NCBI GenBank assembly: GCA_017882785.1
Contig: JADGOV010000017.1
Span: 1 to 39,025 of the forward strand
DNA from: Frankiaceae bacterium
GTDB lineage: Bacteria > Actinomycetota > Actinomycetes > JADGOV01
Direction of reading: 5' to 3'
DNA: 39,025 nucleotides
Position 1 is the first letter of the stretch; each line of letters begins with the position of its first letter. This document shows, piece by piece, positions 18,467 through 35,606 of this stretch. The translations under genes and the position numbers were made by a program. The notes below the pieces were generated by a model. The model searched no databases. It was not told the DNA's origin and was given only the letters and a program-made list of their open reading frames with translations.

Positions 18467-20076
18467 CAGCGCGCGGCGGGCTTGACGGCCTTGGCCGGTT
18501 TCGCGGCCCGCCCTTTGGCCGAGCGCGCGCTCGGGCGTCCGAGTTCCCCGCTGCGGCGACGCTCCACCGCGAACGTCGCCGTGGCCTCGGCCAGCGCCGA
18601 CACGGTCGCCTCCGGGGCCAGCACGTCCACCCGGAGGCCGAGTTCCTCTGCGGTCCTGGCGGTCTGCGGGCCGATGACCGCGATCACCGTCGATGCATGC
18701 GGCTTACCGGCGATGCCCACCAGGTTCCGGACGGTGGAGGAGGAAGTGAAGAGCACGGCATCGAAGCCCCCACCCTTGATCGCGTCCCGGATCTCCGCGG
18801 CCGGCGGGGCGGCGCGCACGGTGCGGTAGGCCGTGACGTCATCCACCTGCCAGCCCAACTCGGTCAGCCCGGCAACCAGCGTCTCGGTGGCGATATCGGC
18901 CCGCGGCAGCAACACCCGGTCGATGGGATCGAACACGTCGTCATAGGCCGGCCACACCTCGAGCAGACCGGCGCTGCTCTGCTGGTCGGTCGGCACCAGC
19001 TCTGGCTCGATCCCCCAGGAGCGCAACGCGTCGGCGGTGGCCTCCCCTATCGCGGCCAGTCGGATGCCGGCGAAGGCCCGTACGTCCAATCCGAGGATCT
19101 CGAACTTCTCCCGCATGGCACGGACCGCGTTCGTCGAGGTGAAGGCCACCCACAGGTACCGTCCGGAGACAAGTCCCTTCACCGCCCGATCCATCGCGGC
19201 CGGTGTGCGTGGTGGCTCGACAGCGATGGTCGGCACCTCGACCGGTATCCCGCCGTAACAGCGCAGCAGGTCCGACATCGTCGCGGCCTGCTCCTTGGTG
19301 CGGGGCACCAGCAGCTGCCAGGCGAACAGCGGCTTGGTCTCGAACCAGGAGAGCCGGTCCCGGCTGGCCACCGCGTTACCCACGACGGTGACCGCGTCCC
19401 CCACCAACCGATGCGCCGCCAGGTCGGTGGACACCTCGGCGAGCGTACTGATGACTGTCTGCTGGGCCACCGTGGTGCCGGCGACCGTGACCGCGATCCG
19501 TGTTTCAGCCGCCGCGCCGTGCTCGATCAGCGCCGCGGCGGCGGCCGGCACCGCGTCCACCCGGGCGAGCATCGTGACCGGTGCGCGGCCAACGGCCAAG
19601 GAGGTCCAGTCCGGGGTGCCGGCCGCCGGATCCACGATGCGCAGTTCCCCGCCGGCTTTCTCGGCGGGCAAGGCGATGCCGGCGTAGGCCGGGACAGCCA
19701 ACGCCGCGGGGACGCCCGGTACCACCTCGAACGGCACTCTCGCTCGGACGCAGGCCGCCGCCTCCTCCGCGGCGCCGCCGAAACTGAACGGGTCCCCGGC
19801 CACCAGCCGCACGACCTGCCGCCCCGACTTCGCCGCGGCGATCGCGGGTTGCACCCGTTCGGCCGGGGTGCCCTCCGCTGCCGGCAGGACCTCTCCTGCC
19901 GGCAGGCAACACGCCAGCACCTCCGGCGGCACCGCGGTGTCGGATACGACGAGATCGGCGCCCGCCAGCAACTCGGCGGCGCGCACGGTGAGCAGGCCGG
20001 GATCACCCGGCCCGGCGCCGACAAAGGCGACGCTCCCGGCGGGCTGCCGGACAGTCTTGGCAGTCATGGTGGTCAT
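18466..20076 (-). CDS. Bifunctional uroporphyrinogen-III C-methyltransferase / uroporphyrinogen-III synthase (CobA-HemD fusion)
   Basis: Two enzymes in one 536-residue chain. Residues of about 15-255 are a SUMT methyltransferase: VAFVGAGPGDPGLLTVRAAELL, VRLVAGDPFSFGGAAEEAAAC and FEVVPGVPAALAVPAYAGI. Residues of about 265-505 are uroporphyrinogen-III synthase, with LWVAFTSTNAVRAMREKFEILG and AVLFTSSSTVRNLVGIAG. A basic Lys/Ala/Pro tail ends the protein. The HemD half closes the tetrapyrrole ring; the SUMT half would lead toward precorrin-2 for siroheme or cobalamin. The SUMT GxGPGD and GDPFSFG motifs are present, but activity cannot be proven from sequence. The start overlaps the hemC stop by 4 bp (ATGA). 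This fusion is common in actinobacteria. Confidence 0.94.
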   Translation of the reverse strand: MTTMTAKTVRQPAGSVAFVGAGPGDPGLLTVRAAELLAGADLVVSDTAVPPEVLACCLPAGEVLPAAEGTPAERVQPAIAAAKSGRQVVRLVAGDPFSFGGAAEEAAACVRARVPFEVVPGVPAALAVPAYAGIALPAEKAGGELRIVDPAAGTPDWTSLAVGRAPVTMLARVDAVPAAAAALIEHGAAAETRIAVTVAGTTVAQQTVISTLAEVSTDLAAHRLVGDAVTVVGNAVASRDRLSWFETKPLFAWQLLVPRTKEQAATMSDLLRCYGGIPVEVPTIAVEPPRTPAAMDRAVKGLVSGRYLWVAFTSTNAVRAMREKFEILGLDVRAFAGIRLAAIGEATADALRSWGIEPELVPTDQQSSAGLLEVWPAYDDVFDPIDRVLLPRADIATETLVAGLTELGWQVDDVTAYRTVRAAPPAAEIRDAIKGGGFDAVLFTSSSTVRNLVGIAGKPHASTVIAVIGPQTARTAEELGLRVDVLAPEATVSALAEATATFAVERRRSGELGRPSARSAKGRAAKPAKAVKPAAR

Positions 20077-20996
20077 CTCTCTTCCAGGAGTTTCGCCGCC
20101 CCAGCGGCCAGCAGACTTGTGGCGAGGCGGTGTCCCAGTTCCGCAGCGGCGGTTACCGCGCCGGTCAGGGACATCCGCAGCACCCGGGCTCCGTCGTGGG
20201 CCGCGATGACCGCCCGTAGCGTCAGAGAATCGTCACTCAACTCGGCGAGCGCGCCGAGCGGGGCGGTGCAACCGGCAGCCACGGCCGCGAGCAAGGTCCG
20301 CTCGGCGGTCACCGCGGCCCGACTCGAGGAGCAGTCGAGGTGGGCCAGGAGCTCCCGCAGCCCGGTGTCGTCCGCTCGACACTCCACCGCGAGCGCCCCC
20401 TGCGCGGGGGCCGGCAGCATGACCGAGGGGTCCAGCACCTCGGTGACCTCCGAAAGCCGACCCAGGCGCGCCAGGCCGGCCCGGGCCAGAACGATCCCGT
20501 CGAGCCGGCCGGAGGCGACCGCGCCGATCCGGGTGCCCACGTTGCCCCGAAGCGGGGCCACCTGCAGGTCGGGCCGAAACGCCCGAATCTGGGCCGCCCG
20601 TCGCGGGGCTCCCGTCCCGATGCGGGCACCGTGCGGGAGGCGAGCCAGTGACGGACCGACGCCGGACACCAGCACGTCCCGTGGGTCCTCGCGAGGCGGC
20701 ACGGCCGCGATCGTCAGGCCCGGCTGGGGAGCGGTAGGAAGATCCTTGTAGGAGTGCACCGCCAGATCGATCTCACCGGCCAGCAGTCGCTCTCGCAGCG
20801 CGCTGACGAAGACGCCCGTGCCGCCGAGCGAGGCGATCGCGCCCGGCGCAACATCGCCGTACGTGGAGATCCCGACCACCTCCACCGGCTGCCCGCTGAC
20901 GTGCCCCAACGCGGCCGCGACCGCGCCCGACTGAGCCCTGGCCAGGGCGGACCGGCGCGTCCCCACCCGGAGGGTGTCGGCGGATACGGTCATCAC
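20073..20996 (-). CDS. hemC: Hydroxymethylbilane synthase (porphobilinogen deaminase) HemC
   Basis: Polymerises four porphobilinogen units into hydroxymethylbilane. The 307-residue product begins LRVGTRRSALARAQSGAVAAAL, has the DLAVHSYKDLPT motif and the GAPRRAAQIRAFRPDL segment, and carries the dipyrromethane-cofactor cysteine in AAGCTAPLGALAEL. Two ATGs stand together at the start; it lies 4 bp after hemA. Confidence 0.96.
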   Translation of the reverse strand: MMTVSADTLRVGTRRSALARAQSGAVAAALGHVSGQPVEVVGISTYGDVAPGAIASLGGTGVFVSALRERLLAGEIDLAVHSYKDLPTAPQPGLTIAAVPPREDPRDVLVSGVGPSLARLPHGARIGTGAPRRAAQIRAFRPDLQVAPLRGNVGTRIGAVASGRLDGIVLARAGLARLGRLSEVTEVLDPSVMLPAPAQGALAVECRADDTGLRELLAHLDCSSSRAAVTAERTLLAAVAAGCTAPLGALAELSDDSLTLRAVIAAHDGARVLRMSLTGAVTAAAELGHRLATSLLAAGAAKLLEER

Positions 20997-21000
20997 CGGC

Positions 21001-22269
21001 TCACGTCCCCTCCGGGAACAGGTCGAAGAGCGCGCGAAGGGCCTCGGCGTAGGCGTGACCGCCGGGTCGTCCGGCCAATTCCTTCACCCGGACAGTGGGC
21101 GCGTGCAGCAGCTTGTCCACGACCCGGTGGACGGCGTTGGCCACCTCCGCGCGTTCCCGGTCCCCCAGGTCGGGCAGCCGGTTGTTCAGCCGGGCCAGTT
21201 CCGCGGCCACTACCGCCGAGGCCTTGTCCCGAAGAGCCGCGACGGTCGGCCCGACCTGCACCGACCGCTGCCAGCCCAGGAACGCCGCCACCTCCTCGGC
21301 CACGATGTCCCGGGCGGCCGCGATGTCCCGGCCGGCAGAAGCATCGCGCAGCGCCTCGCCGAGGGTGGCGAGATCGACCAGCCTGACCCCCGGCACCCGC
21401 CGGACAGCCGGGTCGACATCGTGCGGCAGGGCCAGGTCCACGATCGCCAGCGGGCGTTGGGTCCGATGCGCCATCGCCGCCGCCACGGCCGGCGCGCGGA
21501 GCACGAGGCCGGTCGAGCCGGTGGAGGAGAGCACGAGGTCGGCGACGGCCACCTCGGCCGGGACGTCGGGCAGCCGCACAGCTCGCCCGTCGTAGGTGTC
21601 GGCCAGCCGCTCGGCCCGCGGCATCGTCCGGTTGGCGATCACCAGCTCAGCCACGCCACCACGGCGCAGCAGGGCCGACGCCAGCGCCCCCATCGACCCG
21701 GCGCCGATCACGACGGCCCGCAGGCCCACCAGCGAGCCGACAGTGAGCGTGGCTTCCTCGAGCGCGGCGGCGACGACGGAGGCTCCTGCCCTGTCGATGC
21801 CGGTTTCGGCGTGCACCCGTTTCCCCACGCGCAGCGCCTGCTGCACCAACTCCCCGATGCCGCGACCGACTGTCCCCTCGGCTCGGGCCAAGCGGTGCGC
21901 GGCTCGCAGTTGGCCCAGGATCTGACTCTCACCGACCACCATCGAATCCAGGCCGGCCGCGACGGCGAACAGGTGCGCGACCGCGCTGTCCTCGTAGTGC
22001 AGGTACAGGTGCGGTGACAACTCGTCGAGAGACAGCCCGCTGGCCCGGGACAGAAGCTCGGAAATCTCCTGCCCACCGGCGTGGAACTTCGACACCTCGG
22101 CATAGACCTCCACCCGGTTGCAGGTGGCAAGGACGACAGCCTCCTCGACGTGCAGGCAGCCGCCTAGGTCGGCAAGCAGCTTGGCGGCCTCGTCGCCGAC
22201 CAGGGCAGCCCGTTCCAGCAGATCCACAGGTGCGGACCGATGGGAGAGGCCGACGGCCACCATGTTCAT
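21001..22269 (-). CDS. hemA: Glutamyl-tRNA reductase HemA
   Basis: First enzyme of the C5 heme route: reduces glutamyl-tRNA(Glu) to glutamate-1-semialdehyde, which HemL uses. The 422-residue protein has VGLSHRSAPVDLLERA, the catalytic cysteine C50 in LATCNRVEVYAEV, VVGESQILGQLRAA, the NADPH-binding VIGAGSMGALASALL, and a C-terminal dimerisation helix region. The start ATG AAC ATG lies inside a series of 14-bp repeats and has no recognisable Shine-Dalgarno sequence; the second ATG, at 22263, is an alternative. It is first in the hemA-hemC-cobA/hemD-hemB unit. Confidence 0.96.
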   Translation of the reverse strand: MNMVAVGLSHRSAPVDLLERAALVGDEAAKLLADLGGCLHVEEAVVLATCNRVEVYAEVSKFHAGGQEISELLSRASGLSLDELSPHLYLHYEDSAVAHLFAVAAGLDSMVVGESQILGQLRAAHRLARAEGTVGRGIGELVQQALRVGKRVHAETGIDRAGASVVAAALEEATLTVGSLVGLRAVVIGAGSMGALASALLRRGGVAELVIANRTMPRAERLADTYDGRAVRLPDVPAEVAVADLVLSSTGSTGLVLRAPAVAAAMAHRTQRPLAIVDLALPHDVDPAVRRVPGVRLVDLATLGEALRDASAGRDIAAARDIVAEEVAAFLGWQRSVQVGPTVAALRDKASAVVAAELARLNNRLPDLGDRERAEVANAVHRVVDKLLHAPTVRVKELAGRPGGHAYAEALRALFDLFPEGT

Positions 22270-22315
22270 GCTGGAATGTTCATGCTGGATGGCTCATCGT
22301 TGAGGGTTCATGCTG
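22260..22315 (-). repeat. Four 14-bp tandem units running into the hemA start codon
   Basis: On the minus strand the units are CAGCATGAACCCTC, AACGATGAGCCATC, CAGCATGAACATTC and CAGCATGAACATGG. Units 1, 3 and 4 share CAGCATGAAC; unit 2 is degenerate but keeps GATGA in register. The hemA ATG is in the last unit, and every unit puts an ATG at the same place, so there are several false starts just upstream of the true one. Confidence 0.85.
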
Positions 22316-22342
22316 AAGAGCCCTGCTCCGGTACTCCCACCC

Positions 22343-22381
22343 GACGGAAGGTGCCGACAGGGTCACAAGCTCACTTCCGTC
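22343..22381 (-). promoter_or_regulatory. Hairpin-forming inverted repeat in the hemA upstream region
   Basis: The arms GACGGAAG (22343-22350) and CTTCCGTC (22374-22381) are perfectly complementary over 8 bp and enclose 23 bases. If transcription starts near the Rex-like site, this would form in the hemA 5' leader. No U-run follows, so it does not look like an intrinsic terminator. Confidence 0.4.
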
Positions 22382-22409
22382 CTCCGACGGCCGAGGGGGT
22401 TATGCGGTC

Positions 22410-22438
22410 AGGTTACGCGGTTGTGAACCGCCGCACAA
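22410..22438 (-). promoter_or_regulatory. Candidate hemA promoter overlapping a Rex-operator-like site
   Basis: On the plus strand 22421-22438 reads TTGTGAACCGCCGCACAA. The known Rex operator consensus is TTGTGAA, four bases, TTCACAA; here the left half is perfect and the right half has two mismatches. On the minus strand a weak -35 TTGTGC (22438-22433) and -10 TAACCT (22415-22410) are 17 bp apart, so the site would cover the -35 box and part of the spacer, a repressor-like position. It lies about 150 bp upstream of hemA, between hemA and the glutaredoxin-like gene. Confidence 0.5.
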
Positions 22439-22466
22439 AGTGAGCGATTGTGACCGGCGTGCCCGC

Positions 22467-22724
22467 TTAGCCCTCCAGCGCTCGACGCAGGCGTTCCTCG
22501 TCCACGGCGAACACCGCGTACTCCTCGCCGTCGAGGAGTGTGACGGGTATCCAGTCCGCCCAGCGACGGTAGTCCACCGGGTCGGCGGTGATGTCCCGTT
22601 CTTCCATCACGACGCCGAACTCGACAGCCAGCCCCCGCAGGGCCGTGCGCGCGTCGTCGCAGAGGTGGCATCCGGGCTTCGTGAGCAGCGTGAGGCGATG
22701 TGGGACATGTGCCACATGTCCCAC
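22467..22724 (-). CDS. Glutaredoxin-like (DUF836-type) small redox protein
   Basis: An 85-residue thioredoxin-fold protein. LTLLTKPGCHLCDDARTAL carries a CxxC redox pair (C19, C22 from the GTG at 22724). The rest, ERDITADPVDYRRWADWIPVTLLDGEEYAVFAVDEERLRRAL, matches the glutaredoxin-like family common beside hemA in actinobacteria. The upstream frame is open to 22880 but is only the overlap with the ligase gene. The only plausible start codons, GTG at 22724 and GTG at 22715, are both within the 25-bp palindrome, and no strong ribosome binding site precedes them. If the first is used, the protein begins MGHVAHVPH, a short His-rich lead. It probably shares a transcript with the ligase, whose stop is 20 bp upstream. 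Confidence 0.85.
   Translation of the reverse strand: MGHVAHVPHRLTLLTKPGCHLCDDARTALRGLAVEFGVVMEERDITADPVDYRRWADWIPVTLLDGEEYAVFAVDEERLRRALEG
22700..22724. promoter_or_regulatory. Perfect 25-bp palindrome at the start of the glutaredoxin-like gene
   Basis: The left arm GTGGGACATGTG (22700-22711) and right arm CACATGTCCCAC (22713-22724) are perfect reverse complements around a single central C. The palindrome starts exactly at the predicted GTG start codon on the minus strand. It could be an operator for a dimeric repressor or an RNA hairpin that hides the start codon. No T-run is adjacent, so a terminator is unlikely. Confidence 0.75.
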
Positions 22725-22744
22725 TTCGACCCCGTCACCGACGC

Positions 22745-24325
22745 TCAGAGGACCCCCGCACCGTCGTCGGCGGCAGCTACCCCCGCCCCGGCTGCCTCCG
22801 CCGCCCGCAACTGGCCCTTCGCCACCCGGCCGGTCGCGGTATGCGGGAACTCGGTGACGAACTGCACGGTCGTCGGGCACTTGAAGCGGGCCAGCGACAG
22901 GGCTCCGTACTCGATGACATCCTCGGCCGAGAGCCGGGCACCTTCCCGCAGCCGCACGAGCGCTTTGACCGACTCGCCGGTGTAGGGGTGCGCGATGCCG
23001 ATGACCGCCACCTCGGCGATGTCCGGATGTTGGCTCAGCGCGTTCTCAACCTCACGCGGGTAGACGTTGAACCCGCTGACCAGGATCAACTCCCGCATCC
23101 GGTCGACGAGGAACAGATCGCCGTCATCATCGGCGTACGCGACATCGCCGGTGCCCAGCCAACCCTCGCCGTCCGGGCCTTCCCGCCCGTCCGGCCAGTA
23201 GCCGGAGAACAGGTTCACCCCGCGCACGACGATCTCGCCGGGGTCGTCCTCCTCCACTTCGGATCGGTCGTCGTTGAGCAGCCGGAGCTCGACCCCGGGG
23301 ATGGGCCGACCGATCGAGCCCGACTTGGGTTCCTCGCTGGTCAACGTCGTTGTAAGCACCGGCGCGGTCTCGGTCAGGCCGTAACCCTCGAAGACGTGGT
23401 GCCCGGTCTGCTCGAGCATCGAGCGGTGCACCGCCGGCGGTAGCGGTGCGGCGCCCGAGACGGCCAGCCGGACGGTCTGGAACGCCTCCCCGACGCCGGG
23501 CAGCATCGACCAGGCGATGAACATCGGCGGCGCGCCCATGACGGTGCTCACGCTGTGTCGGCTGATGTCCGCGAGGGTCTCCACCGGGTCGAACCGCTCG
23601 ACCAGGACGCCGGTGGCACCGTGGAAGGCAACTTCGCCGAGGCCACCGTTGAGACCGTAAATGTGGAACAGCGGCAGCACGAGCAACACGATGTCGTCGG
23701 CGTCGATCGTCCGCGGCCGGATCCGGGCGGTCTGTTCGAGGTTCCCGATCAAGGCACGGTGGCTCAGCATGGCGCCCTTGGGTCGCCCGGAGGTTCCAGA
23801 CGTGTACATCAACACCGCCAGGTCCTCACCGCCCGTCACCGGCTCTACGGGACGGTCTGGCAGTAGCAACTCGTCGTAGGTCGCGGTGCCCGACACCGCG
23901 GCGGTGTCGGTGACCAGCACGGTCTCCAGGCTCGACAAGATCTCGCTCAAGGCGGTGACCACGGGAGCGGCGGCCCGCCCACACAGCGCCATTCGGGTGC
24001 CGGAGTCGCTGAGGAGGTAGGTCAACTCGTCAGCGGTGTAGGCGGTGTTGATCGGCACCGCGACCAGGCCAGCGCGCAGGATGCCGAAATAGGCCGCCAC
24101 GTAGTCGGGTGTGTTGCCCAGGAGCAGGGCGACACGGTCTCCCCGGTTGAGCGGGCGGGACTGCAAGCCGGCGGCTACCGCGTCCACGCGCCGATCCAGC
24201 TCAGCCCAACTCACGGCATCCTCACGGAAGAGCAGGGCCACCTTGTCCGGAAACACATGGGCGGCGCGCCGGACGAGATCAGAGAGGTTGCCGACTCCGC
24301 CCTCGCCCGTGCCGGGAAGACCCAT
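22745..24325 (-). CDS. Long-chain acyl-CoA synthetase / AMP-dependent ligase
   Basis: Activates a carboxylic acid, probably a fatty acid, as acyl-AMP and then acyl-CoA. All adenylation-family motifs are in order over 526 residues: YTSGTSGRPKGAMLSH, the core GYGLTETAP, GWLGTGDVAYADDDG, VDRMRELILVSGFNVYPREVE, and the C-terminal catalytic lysine in TGRVAKGQL. The ATG at 24325 has AGGAGG 10 bases upstream; the later GTG before GNLSDLVRRAA is an alternative. A short Ala/Gly tail ends the protein. It runs divergently from the BldN-like gene. Substrate chain length cannot be read from the sequence. Confidence 0.93.
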   Translation of the reverse strand: MGLPGTGEGGVGNLSDLVRRAAHVFPDKVALLFREDAVSWAELDRRVDAVAAGLQSRPLNRGDRVALLLGNTPDYVAAYFGILRAGLVAVPINTAYTADELTYLLSDSGTRMALCGRAAAPVVTALSEILSSLETVLVTDTAAVSGTATYDELLLPDRPVEPVTGGEDLAVLMYTSGTSGRPKGAMLSHRALIGNLEQTARIRPRTIDADDIVLLVLPLFHIYGLNGGLGEVAFHGATGVLVERFDPVETLADISRHSVSTVMGAPPMFIAWSMLPGVGEAFQTVRLAVSGAAPLPPAVHRSMLEQTGHHVFEGYGLTETAPVLTTTLTSEEPKSGSIGRPIPGVELRLLNDDRSEVEEDDPGEIVVRGVNLFSGYWPDGREGPDGEGWLGTGDVAYADDDGDLFLVDRMRELILVSGFNVYPREVENALSQHPDIAEVAVIGIAHPYTGESVKALVRLREGARLSAEDVIEYGALSLARFKCPTTVQFVTEFPHTATGRVAKGQLRAAEAAGAGVAAADDGAGVL

Positions 24326-24555
24326 ATCGTCCAGACCTCCTCAGGGCACGCTGACCGATCGGCGCCGCTGGCCCGTCGGGCTTTGTCCGTCTGCCGGTAG
24401 TGTTTCACAGTTGCAAGCAGCGGCCCCGCCGGCCCTGCGACCGGCCGCATCGAGCGTTCGGCGTTCCTGCAGGCACAATAGGCGGGTTCGACCTCATCCC
24501 CGGGCTCGATCGCGATCCTTTGACCCGGACCCTCAACCGGACTCCCGGAGACACG
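24326..24555. promoter_or_regulatory. Divergent promoter region between the acyl-CoA ligase and bldN-like genes
   Basis: A 230-bp non-coding interval. The frame of the sigma-factor gene is open back to an ATG at 24400, so the segment 24400-24555 could be translated if that start is used, but it has no ribosome binding site and reads as unstructured sequence. I see no strong -35/-10 pair and no clear long palindrome. Confidence 0.3.
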
Positions 24556-25494
24556 ATGTCGCCTCGGCCGGCCAGCCGCCTCACACGGGGGGCGGGACTC
24601 GGCCGACTTCGGCGTGCCCAGCGTGCACGTCGCGAGCTGTTGACGGCCCGGCTACTCGGTCTGTCGACGGCCCTCGCGCACTCCGCACTGGGCACGCGGG
24701 TCCCCGGCGTTCGGGGCCGGCGGCTGACACCGGCATGGGCCGGCGCCGGGGGCGTCAGCTGGCAGCGTCTCGTGTCGTCGGCGACGGAGACACCGGATCG
24801 ACGTCGTCGGCTTCCCTCGGTGGTCGAGGGGTCCCTGACGGTCAACGGCCGGGGCAACGTGGCTGACCTCGACCTCGACCTCGAGGAGGAGGAGGAGGAG
24901 GAGGAGGACACCGAGCTCGCCGCGGACAGGGACCAGGACAGGGAGACTGTCAGGACGCTCCTCGCCGAAGCCCAGCAGGGCCAGGCCGAGGCCTTCGGTC
25001 AGCTCTACGACCGGTACGTCACGCTCATCTATCGCTACACCTACTACCGGGTGGGGAGCGTCGCACTCGCCGAGGACCTCACGAGTGAGACGTTCCTGCG
25101 GGCGCTGCGGCGGATCTCATCCTTCACCTGGCAGGGGCGGGACTTCGGGGCCTGGCTGATCACGATCGCCCGCAATCTCGTGGCCGACCACTACAAGTCA
25201 GCGCGCTTCCGACTCGAACTGCCCACCGCCGACATGCTGCAGGCCGACGCCGAGGAGCTCGCGGCCGGACCGGAGGGACAGGTGATCGGGGGCCTGACGA
25301 ACGCCGCGCTCCTCGACGCTGTCCGCGAACTTGGGTCCGAGCAGCAGGAGTGCATCGTCCTGCGCTTCTTCGAGGGTCTCTCGTTGACCGAGACCGCGCT
25401 CGCCATGGACAAGAGCGCCGGCGCGGTGAAGGCCCTGCAGTACCGAGCCGTACGCTCCCTCGCACGGCTATTGCCAGCGGACTTCCACCGGTGA
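24556..25494 (+). CDS. BldN/AdsA-type ECF RNA polymerase sigma factor with long N-terminal extension
   Basis: Alternative sigma factor related to Streptomyces BldN, which directs aerial-mycelium genes. The start ATG has GGAG 5 bases upstream, giving 312 residues. Region 2 is at about 146-213 (AFGQLYDRYVTLIYRYTYYR, AEDLTSETFLRALRRISSF, then TWQGRDFGAWLITIARNLVA) and region 4 at about 250-305 (QQECIVLRFFEGLSLTETAL, then KALQYRAVRSLARLLP). These are close to BldN as I remember it. The first 125 residues are basic and then acidic, ending in LDLDLE and a run of eight Glu (110-117) encoded by consecutive GAG codons. Streptomyces BldN also has an N-terminal prosequence of about 86 residues that is removed by proteolysis, so this extension may be an equivalent. 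The anti-sigma factor gene follows. Confidence 0.92.
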   Translation: MSPRPASRLTRGAGLGRLRRAQRARRELLTARLLGLSTALAHSALGTRVPGVRGRRLTPAWAGAGGVSWQRLVSSATETPDRRRRLPSVVEGSLTVNGRGNVADLDLDLEEEEEEEEDTELAADRDQDRETVRTLLAEAQQGQAEAFGQLYDRYVTLIYRYTYYRVGSVALAEDLTSETFLRALRRISSFTWQGRDFGAWLITIARNLVADHYKSARFRLELPTADMLQADAEELAAGPEGQVIGGLTNAALLDAVRELGSEQQECIVLRFFEGLSLTETALAMDKSAGAVKALQYRAVRSLARLLPADFHR

Positions 25495-25681
25495 CCCCCT
25501 CGGTGCAGCCCGAGCACCGGCCCTGGCATCGGCTTGGCCTCGGCCAAACGGTGGATTCCGGGGCGCTGCGCGTAACTCCCGCCCGGTATGCCTCGTTGTC
25601 CCGATCGGAAGGCACGTGTGGCCGGAGTAACCCTTGTCGCACACGTCAGGCAGCGCACACACCTGAAGGGAGGCGGCGCCG
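25495..25681 (+). other. Interval between sigma and anti-sigma genes
   Basis: 187 bp on the plus strand with no supported gene. A strong GGGAGG ribosome binding site stands just before the anti-sigma GTG. No clear terminator hairpin is seen, so read-through from the sigma gene is possible. Confidence 0.3.
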
Positions 25682-27166
25682 GTGATCCAGTCCCCGCACA
25701 CCCGTCGGCGCGCCGAAGCCTTCGCGCGTGCGCTGGACGGCGGGGCCGAGCCCGACGCCGCATCCCGATCGCTGGTGACCCTGGCGCGTGCTCTGCCACA
25801 ACCCCCGGTGACGATGTCCACCGCCTCCCGGGAGCGGGTGCGCCGACGCCTGCTGGCGGTCGCCGCGGTGCAGTCGCCCGGAAATCCCCAGGGCGCACCA
25901 ACCGCGCGGTCGGAGATGGGGCAGCACCGGAAGTCTCGAGGACAGAGTCGACTGGCGTTGGTCACCGGGATGGTGACCGTCGTGCTGCTCGTGTTCGCCC
26001 TGGTGGCCATCGGCGGTAACCGCGCGCTGCCAGGCGAGCCGCTCTACCGGGTGAAGTCCCTCGCTGAGGCGGTTCAGCTGGCAGCGACCTTCGGCGACGT
26101 CGACCGAGGCAAGCGACACTTGGCCTTCGCCGCCACCCGGGTGCGCGAGGTCGACGCGCTCGTCACCCAGGACAGAGCGGGCGCGGCCGGGCCCAACGCA
26201 GTCGCGCCGCTGCCCAGACAGCCGGTGGCGGCGTCCCTCGAGGCCGACGGCCCACCCAGCGCGCTCGTCGTGGATACCCTGAGGCGGATGGCCGAGCAGA
26301 CTGTCGCCGGCACCAAGGACCTGACCGAGGCGTGGCGGTCCTCCGGCGACGAGGGGCCGCTGCGGTACCTCAACGGCTACTCCCGCCAGCAGTTCTCTGA
26401 CCTTCGCGCCATCCTGACGATGCTGCCCGTCGGTGCTAAGCCCGTGGCTGCCCGTTCGATGGCCCTGCTCGTCATTGTCAACAACCGAGCGGACTGGCTC
26501 CAGAAGGTCAGCTGCACCGTCCGCTGCCGCCACGGGTCGCGCGCCGGCGGGAGCGGGGTGACTATCGCCTCGGACCCGCTGGGGGCGATACCGTGCTTGG
26601 GGACATGCACGCTGGCGACGTCCGTCGCGGAGTTGACGATGCCGGCCGAGCCTGTCACCTCGGCGACCGAGACGATGGGGAACCAGCTCGACGCGATCCT
26701 CGAGACCATCCCACCCACGTCGGCGACGACCGCCTCACCGGACGCGGGCGCCACTCTCCCGCTGCTGCCGCCCACGACGTCCCCGCCTGCCGTGGGAGGC
26801 CCAACACCGCCGGGCGACACCAAGCCGGACCCCGGCTCATCGCCGACGACCGAGGTTCCGCTGCCGCCGGACACCTCGACGTCCGCTCCGAGCGGCAGTA
26901 CACCAGCGCCGAGCACGCTTCCCCCATCGACCTCCGCGCCGACCCCTGCGCCGACCTCCGCGCCGACTTTCATCCCTTCACCCGCGCCGTCCCCCACACC
27001 GAGCACCTCAGACCCACCCCCTGTCCGGCACAGCGACCACCGCCGCCCCCCCGATTCGGGAGCGGCAACCCCGTCCCAGAGCAAGGCCATCGCGGGGTCC
27101 GCCGCAACCTACGCCGGGCCGGCACCACAGCAGTCCCCGGTCTCGACCGTCGCGTCAGGGAGTTAG
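25682..27166 (+). CDS. RsbN-like membrane anti-sigma factor (DUF5667 domain)
   Basis: Predicted partner of the BldN-like sigma factor; in Streptomyces, RsbN next to bldN holds BldN at the membrane. The GTG start follows GGGAGG by about 7 bases, giving 494 residues. The cytoplasmic part (1-90) has the helical AFARALDGGAEPDAASRSLVTLA sigma-binding-like segment. One membrane helix spans about 91-111 (LALVTGMVTVVLLVFALVAI). The outer DUF5667 part includes ALPGEPLYRVKSLAEAVQLA and RGKRHLAFAATRVREVDALV. The last 140 residues are a Pro/Thr/Ser-rich spacer (PAPTSAPTF and similar) that looks like a cell-wall-spanning stalk. Confidence 0.88.
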   Translation: MIQSPHTRRRAEAFARALDGGAEPDAASRSLVTLARALPQPPVTMSTASRERVRRRLLAVAAVQSPGNPQGAPTARSEMGQHRKSRGQSRLALVTGMVTVVLLVFALVAIGGNRALPGEPLYRVKSLAEAVQLAATFGDVDRGKRHLAFAATRVREVDALVTQDRAGAAGPNAVAPLPRQPVAASLEADGPPSALVVDTLRRMAEQTVAGTKDLTEAWRSSGDEGPLRYLNGYSRQQFSDLRAILTMLPVGAKPVAARSMALLVIVNNRADWLQKVSCTVRCRHGSRAGGSGVTIASDPLGAIPCLGTCTLATSVAELTMPAEPVTSATETMGNQLDAILETIPPTSATTASPDAGATLPLLPPTTSPPAVGGPTPPGDTKPDPGSSPTTEVPLPPDTSTSAPSGSTPAPSTLPPSTSAPTPAPTSAPTFIPSPAPSPTPSTSDPPPVRHSDHRRPPDSGAATPSQSKAIAGSAATYAGPAPQQSPVSTVASGS

Positions 27167-34775: not shown

Positions 34776-35606
34776 GTGACGTCATCTTCCAAGCCTGTCC
34801 GGAGCTCGGCGGCATCCCGCAAGTCGGTGCTGTCCGCCCTTGACCTGTCCGTTCGGTTGACCGCGAAGGAAGAGGGGGCGCGGCTCGTCCGGGTGCAGGC
34901 GCAGCTGCTGCAGCTGCGCCTGGTGCTGGGCGGCCTGATGGGTGAGCAACAGATCGGGCCACCGGTCTGCGTGCTCTTCGAAGGCTGGGACGCGTCCGGC
35001 AAGGGCGGTTGCATCAAGCGGCTGGTGGCCCCGATGGACCCCCGGCACGTCCGCGTCGCGCAGTTCGCGGCGCCAACCTATGACGAGAAGCGCCATCACT
35101 TCCTGTGGCGGTTCTGGCCCGCGCTGCCCGGGTGGGGAGGAATGGCCGTGTTGGACCGGTCCTGGTATGGACGGGTCCTGGTCGAGCGGGTGGAAGGCTT
35201 CGCCTCTGAAGAGTCCTGGTCCCGGGCGTACCAGGAGATCGCCGAGTTCGAGTCGACCCTCATCGCCGAGGGCATGATCGTGATCAAGTTCTGGCTGCAC
35301 CTGTCCAGCGCGGAACAGCTGCGTCGGTTCGAGGCGCGCCAGAAGGACCCGCTGAAGGCATGGAAGCTCACTGCTGAGGACTGGCGCAACCGCAAGAAGC
35401 GCAAGGCGTACAGCGCAGCGGTGGACACGATGGTCGAGCGAACGTCCACCCCGCAGGCCCCATGGCACCTCATCGAGGCCGAGGACAAACGGTGGGCGCG
35501 GGTCAAGGTGCTGGAGACTGTCTGTAGAGCGATCGAGGAGGGACTCGTTCAGCGGGGCATGTTCGTGCCCACGCCGCCGAAGGACGTCCGCCACAAGCGA
35601 TGGTGA
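34776..35606 (+). CDS. ppk2: Polyphosphate kinase 2 (PPK2) family protein
   Basis: Transfers phosphate between polyphosphate and nucleotides. The 276-residue protein has the Walker A GWDASGKGG at 70-78, the PTYDEKRHHFLWRFW lid-like region, and the Walker B/active site LDRSWYGRVLVERV (D127, R128). C-terminal WKLTAEDWRNRKKRKAYSAAVDTMVERT and PWHLIEAEDKRWARVKVLE are standard PPK2. The start is a GTG. Whether it prefers ADP, GDP or AMP cannot be told from these motifs. It converges on proC, leaving 17 bp. Confidence 0.93.
   Translation: MTSSSKPVRSSAASRKSVLSALDLSVRLTAKEEGARLVRVQAQLLQLRLVLGGLMGEQQIGPPVCVLFEGWDASGKGGCIKRLVAPMDPRHVRVAQFAAPTYDEKRHHFLWRFWPALPGWGGMAVLDRSWYGRVLVERVEGFASEESWSRAYQEIAEFESTLIAEGMIVIKFWLHLSSAEQLRRFEARQKDPLKAWKLTAEDWRNRKKRKAYSAAVDTMVERTSTPQAPWHLIEAEDKRWARVKVLETVCRAIEEGLVQRGMFVPTPPKDVRHKRW

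Follow-up and report, generated by a model that had tools for sequence, protein, structure and literature searches.

A perfect palindrome over the start of a glutaredoxin-like gene in a Frankiaceae bacterium, and its possible action as an mRNA hairpin

The glutaredoxin-like gene (grx) on contig JADGOV010000017.1 of a Frankiaceae bacterium begins within a perfect 25-base palindrome. We tentatively read this element, with a probability of about 0.4, as a lineage-specific inverted repeat at a stretched ligase-grx operon junction that would act, if at all, in the mRNA, as a hairpin occluding the start of the gene. The original prediction, made from the letters of the window (the whole analysed stretch of 39,025 nucleotides), had offered an operator or an RNA hairpin as interpretations. 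The hairpin has proved physically plausible in view of its stable predicted fold, though it lacks conservation, whereas the operator is unsupported.

The palindrome and the ligase-grx junction

The features on which the argument turns are as follows.

22700-22724: perfect palindrome GTGGGACATGTG-C-CACATGTCCCAC, 25 bases, two arms of 12 around one central base
22696-22728: longer, imperfect form of the inverted repeat, with 15 of 16 positions paired
22705-22724: period-9 tandem repeat ACATGTGCC, 2.2 copies, within the palindrome (Tandem Repeats Finder)
22690-22740, minus strand: mRNA hairpin predicted at -28.7 kcal/mol, its 18 pairs interrupted twice
22467-22724, minus strand: glutaredoxin-like gene (PF05768, DUF836), candidate GTG starts 22724 and 22715, stop codon 22467-22469
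22745-24325, minus strand: acyl-CoA ligase (AMP-binding) gene, directly upstream of grx
21001-22269, minus strand: hemA, glutamyl-tRNA reductase, downstream of grx in the same direction
22421-22438, minus strand: Rex-operator-like site TTGTGCGGCGGTTCACAA, upstream of hemA and separate from the palindrome

The palindrome was predicted exactly, in its letters as in its coordinates, and its pairing reaches further than was claimed, the extended arms (22696-22711 and 22713-22728, 16 nt each) being 94% complementary. Its central base is C on the plus strand and G on the coding strand. About half of the symmetry is owed to the self-palindromic hexamer ACATGT, which recurs within the palindrome at a 9-bp period. 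The encoded protein matches PF05768 at 54 bits, against a curated cut-off of 26, and carries the CxxC motif as CHLC. Both candidate GTG starts, 22724 and 22715, sit within the palindrome, and a scan of in-frame start codons bore out the placement of the first possible start at its outer edge: GTG 22724 is the earliest in-frame ATG, GTG or TTG past the ligase stop, and the nearest one further upstream, at 22880, lies within the ligase gene. The N-terminal residues of the protein, some nine in number, are not conserved among homologues, and the DNA that encodes them is therefore free to vary.

The TGA stop of the ligase is separated from GTG 22724 by 20 nt. In most relatives that carry the ligase-grx pair, the two genes instead overlap at this stop and start, usually by 4 or 8 nt. 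Moreover, the C-terminus of the ligase is about 18 residues longer than that of its close homologue L014, and because the ligase end is longer and the junction stretched to 20 nt, the palindrome appears to occupy sequence peculiar to this lineage. The two genes are co-oriented and closely spaced, as coupled pairs are, and their order is conserved among relatives, in support of coupling. Since relatives keep the ligase stop and grx start overlapping, the arrangement points to an operon with translational coupling; the earlier suggestion that the redox gene is independently controlled is contradicted by this overlap. The pair is presumably co-transcribed in the present organism.

Folding of the mRNA was predicted to yield -17.1 kcal/mol over 25 nt (z -3.8) and -28.7 kcal/mol over 51 nt (z -4.3), with an 11-bp stem closed by a 3-nt GGC loop and extended by CGA/UCG and GGGG/CCUC pairs. 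In this predicted fold, the unpaired probability of the start codon is near 0, and a weak GGGG stretch resembling a Shine-Dalgarno sequence is paired about half the time. The hairpin would thus bury the GUG start, whichever of the two candidates is used, together with part of the Shine-Dalgarno-like stretch, so that few ribosomes would initiate on grx independently and glutaredoxin translation would rely on ribosomes arriving from the ligase. The element itself probably goes back to the duplication of a 9-bp unit containing ACATGT in sequence without protein constraint. Structures that occlude a start codon and keep the downstream gene silent when its upstream neighbour is not translated have been documented, and coupling is known to weaken with distance and with structure just past the stop codon (PMC12548453). 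The present junction resembles that RNA-unfolding model in its co-oriented genes, short distance and predicted structure over the downstream start; it differs in that the predicted structure is not conserved and the genes are spaced by +20 nt without overlap.

Copies, conservation and chance

Searching the entire 3.2-Mb genome for the full palindrome with up to 3 mismatches returned a single copy. The 21-mer core has two extra sites at 3 mismatches, against one for its reversed control (3 against 1 in total), and the ACATGT-N3-ACATGT core occurs in 35 places against 45 for its reversed control; neither core is commoner than its control beyond chance. Copies preceding other genes, which the original prediction had proposed looking for, were accordingly not found at up to 3 mismatches. 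Among the 297 genomes of the class, the 296 other than the window's own lack the palindrome at up to 2 mismatches; six of them match at exactly 3, and more genomes match the reversed control. Nothing relevant was found in viral contigs or plasmids, and Rfam gave no match over 20000-26000. In the parts of the literature available for comparison, the 12-mer arms match no bacterial operator, the matches being stray ones.

Protein homologues of grx are present in 59 of 60 relatives, and their first residues and upstream DNA have nothing in common with the palindrome. These relatives are related at the level of the class, the best HemA match in GTDB having 59% identity, and at that level the comparison of grx upstream regions went against conservation: the palindrome is absent from the orthologous start at about 100 homologous loci. 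A perfect repeat longer than 9 lies within 120 nt of only 3 of 104 homologous starts, a set that includes the window's own; the three are the window, L003 and L010. The perfect hairpin arms of L003 and L010 measure 19 bp and 16 bp, and the hairpin of L005, from the same family, is imperfect.

The expected frequency of such elements was estimated under a first-order Markov model of this 70% GC genome, counting perfect inverted repeats whose arms reach 12 or more and whose loops do not exceed 8. About 7 are expected per genome and about 0.09 per 39-kb window. Two sets of stretches amounting to 403 kb, masked Ns skipped, contained 11 against an expectation of about 0.9, three of them in the window, and this density implies roughly 90 genome-wide; related actinobacterial loci (867 kb) contain 38 repeats whose arms are 12 or longer. 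The claim that such a match is very unlikely by chance therefore stands for a given 39-kb window but not for the genome, where several are expected and the sample implies more. It is overstated, and the position on the start codon was spotted after the fact. Two more perfect inverted repeats lie at 34896-34922 and 19878-19905, with arms of 13 and 12, the latter within the cobA-hemD coding frame. A tRNA-Tyr call at 19324-19414 also falls within that frame and was taken as a false positive.

Weighing the explanations

A neutral origin, by chance or slippage, is nearly as likely as the hairpin mechanism. It would have the 9-bp duplication containing ACATGT, with its GTGGG/CCCAC flanks, arise at an unconstrained junction and remain functionless, and it agrees with the genome-wide abundance of such repeats, the period-9 repeat inside the palindrome, the variable glutaredoxin N-terminus, and an element that is single-copy and unconserved. 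It sits less easily with the low expectation for a single window, with pairing that extends to 15 of 16 positions and coincides exactly with the start, and with the selection that might be expected to remove a strong hairpin from a start codon. The hairpin reading faces difficulties of its own: the hairpin is conserved in no relative examined, the 20-nt spacing exceeds the optimum for coupling, and the folding energy over 70 nt is ordinary among the junctions of relatives. Moreover, the unpaired probability at the start codon is at most 0.02 in 11 of 91 homologues, and start codons within predicted stems are common in these genomes. On balance, we rank a hairpin with a modest occluding effect on the start just above a neutral origin; a terminator and an operator both come far behind these two.

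We consider it improbable that the palindrome, which lacks a U-tract, terminates the ligase transcript in a non-canonical way or stabilises its 3' end, possibly with attenuation into grx. Its location 20 nt past the ligase stop codon would fit, and in three homologues from one family (L003, L005 and L010) a terminator-like, G+C-rich hairpin separates grx from the stop codon of the gene before it, which is not the ligase. Those hairpins share with the palindrome their G+C-rich, intergenic character and their position just ahead of grx; they differ in sequence, in upstream gene, and in lying before the start rather than on it. An intrinsic terminator has a U-rich tract after its G+C-rich stem, but a terminator scan gave no terminator-like site and there is no T-run on either strand. 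Both candidate grx starts lie within the stem, so that termination would eliminate the gene, and the overlapping genes of most ligase-grx relatives leave no space for a terminator. Less probable still is that an unknown dimeric regulator binds the palindrome as an operator of grx, a reading suggested by the perfect twofold symmetry at the gene start. Neither recurrence in a regulon nor conservation upstream of orthologues was found with class-level relatives compared, the searches described above having returned one genomic copy, no excess of either core, no counterpart within 2 mismatches in other genomes of the class and none in viral contigs, and a scan for sigma-70 promoters, the one type covered, found no promoter-like site nearby. 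Least probable of all, we believe, is that, after Rex was lost from this lineage, redox control of the grx-hem operon passed to an unknown regulator or an RNA-binding protein whose one dedicated site lies at the grx start.

A Rex-operator-like site ahead of hemA

The sequence TTGTGAACCGCCGCACAA at 22421-22438 agrees with the consensus of the Rex operator (ROP), TTGTGAANNNNTTCACAA (PMC5355995), at 12 of 14 positions. The palindrome at 22700 shares with ROP a place in the grx-hemA neighbourhood but is otherwise unlike it, and the ROP-like site is a distinct one. In L014, a site upstream of rex-hemA has the equivalent location and an identical downstream GTAACCT. Rex is present in 18 of 20 genomes searched, yet it was not detected in the window's own genome, which is 99% complete. 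The rex gene that relatives carry between grx and hemA is missing at this locus, and the grx-hemA gap measures 201 bp, compared with roughly 800-1300 bp in most relatives. The genome held no second good match to the Rex operator. Unless Rex sits in unassembled sequence, the operator-like site has apparently persisted after its repressor was lost.

Other features of this neighbourhood deserve mention. A 14-bp tandem repeat (ATGTTCATGCTGGA) at 22262-22315 overlaps the hemA start; its unit in coding orientation, CAGCATGA, places several ATG codons at or before that start. The frame at 24400-25494 encodes an ECF sigma factor near the BldN family, scoring 184.6 bits and thus below the curated cut-off of 206; it has a long extension ahead of the sigma domain and an acidic codon run, with a GAG repeat at 24883-24908.

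As it stands, the palindrome matters little; if the hairpin works, it would join the structures that occlude start codons in actinobacterial operons. The orphan Rex-operator-like site is the more promising of the two, since it bears on what becomes of redox control over heme synthesis once Rex is lost.
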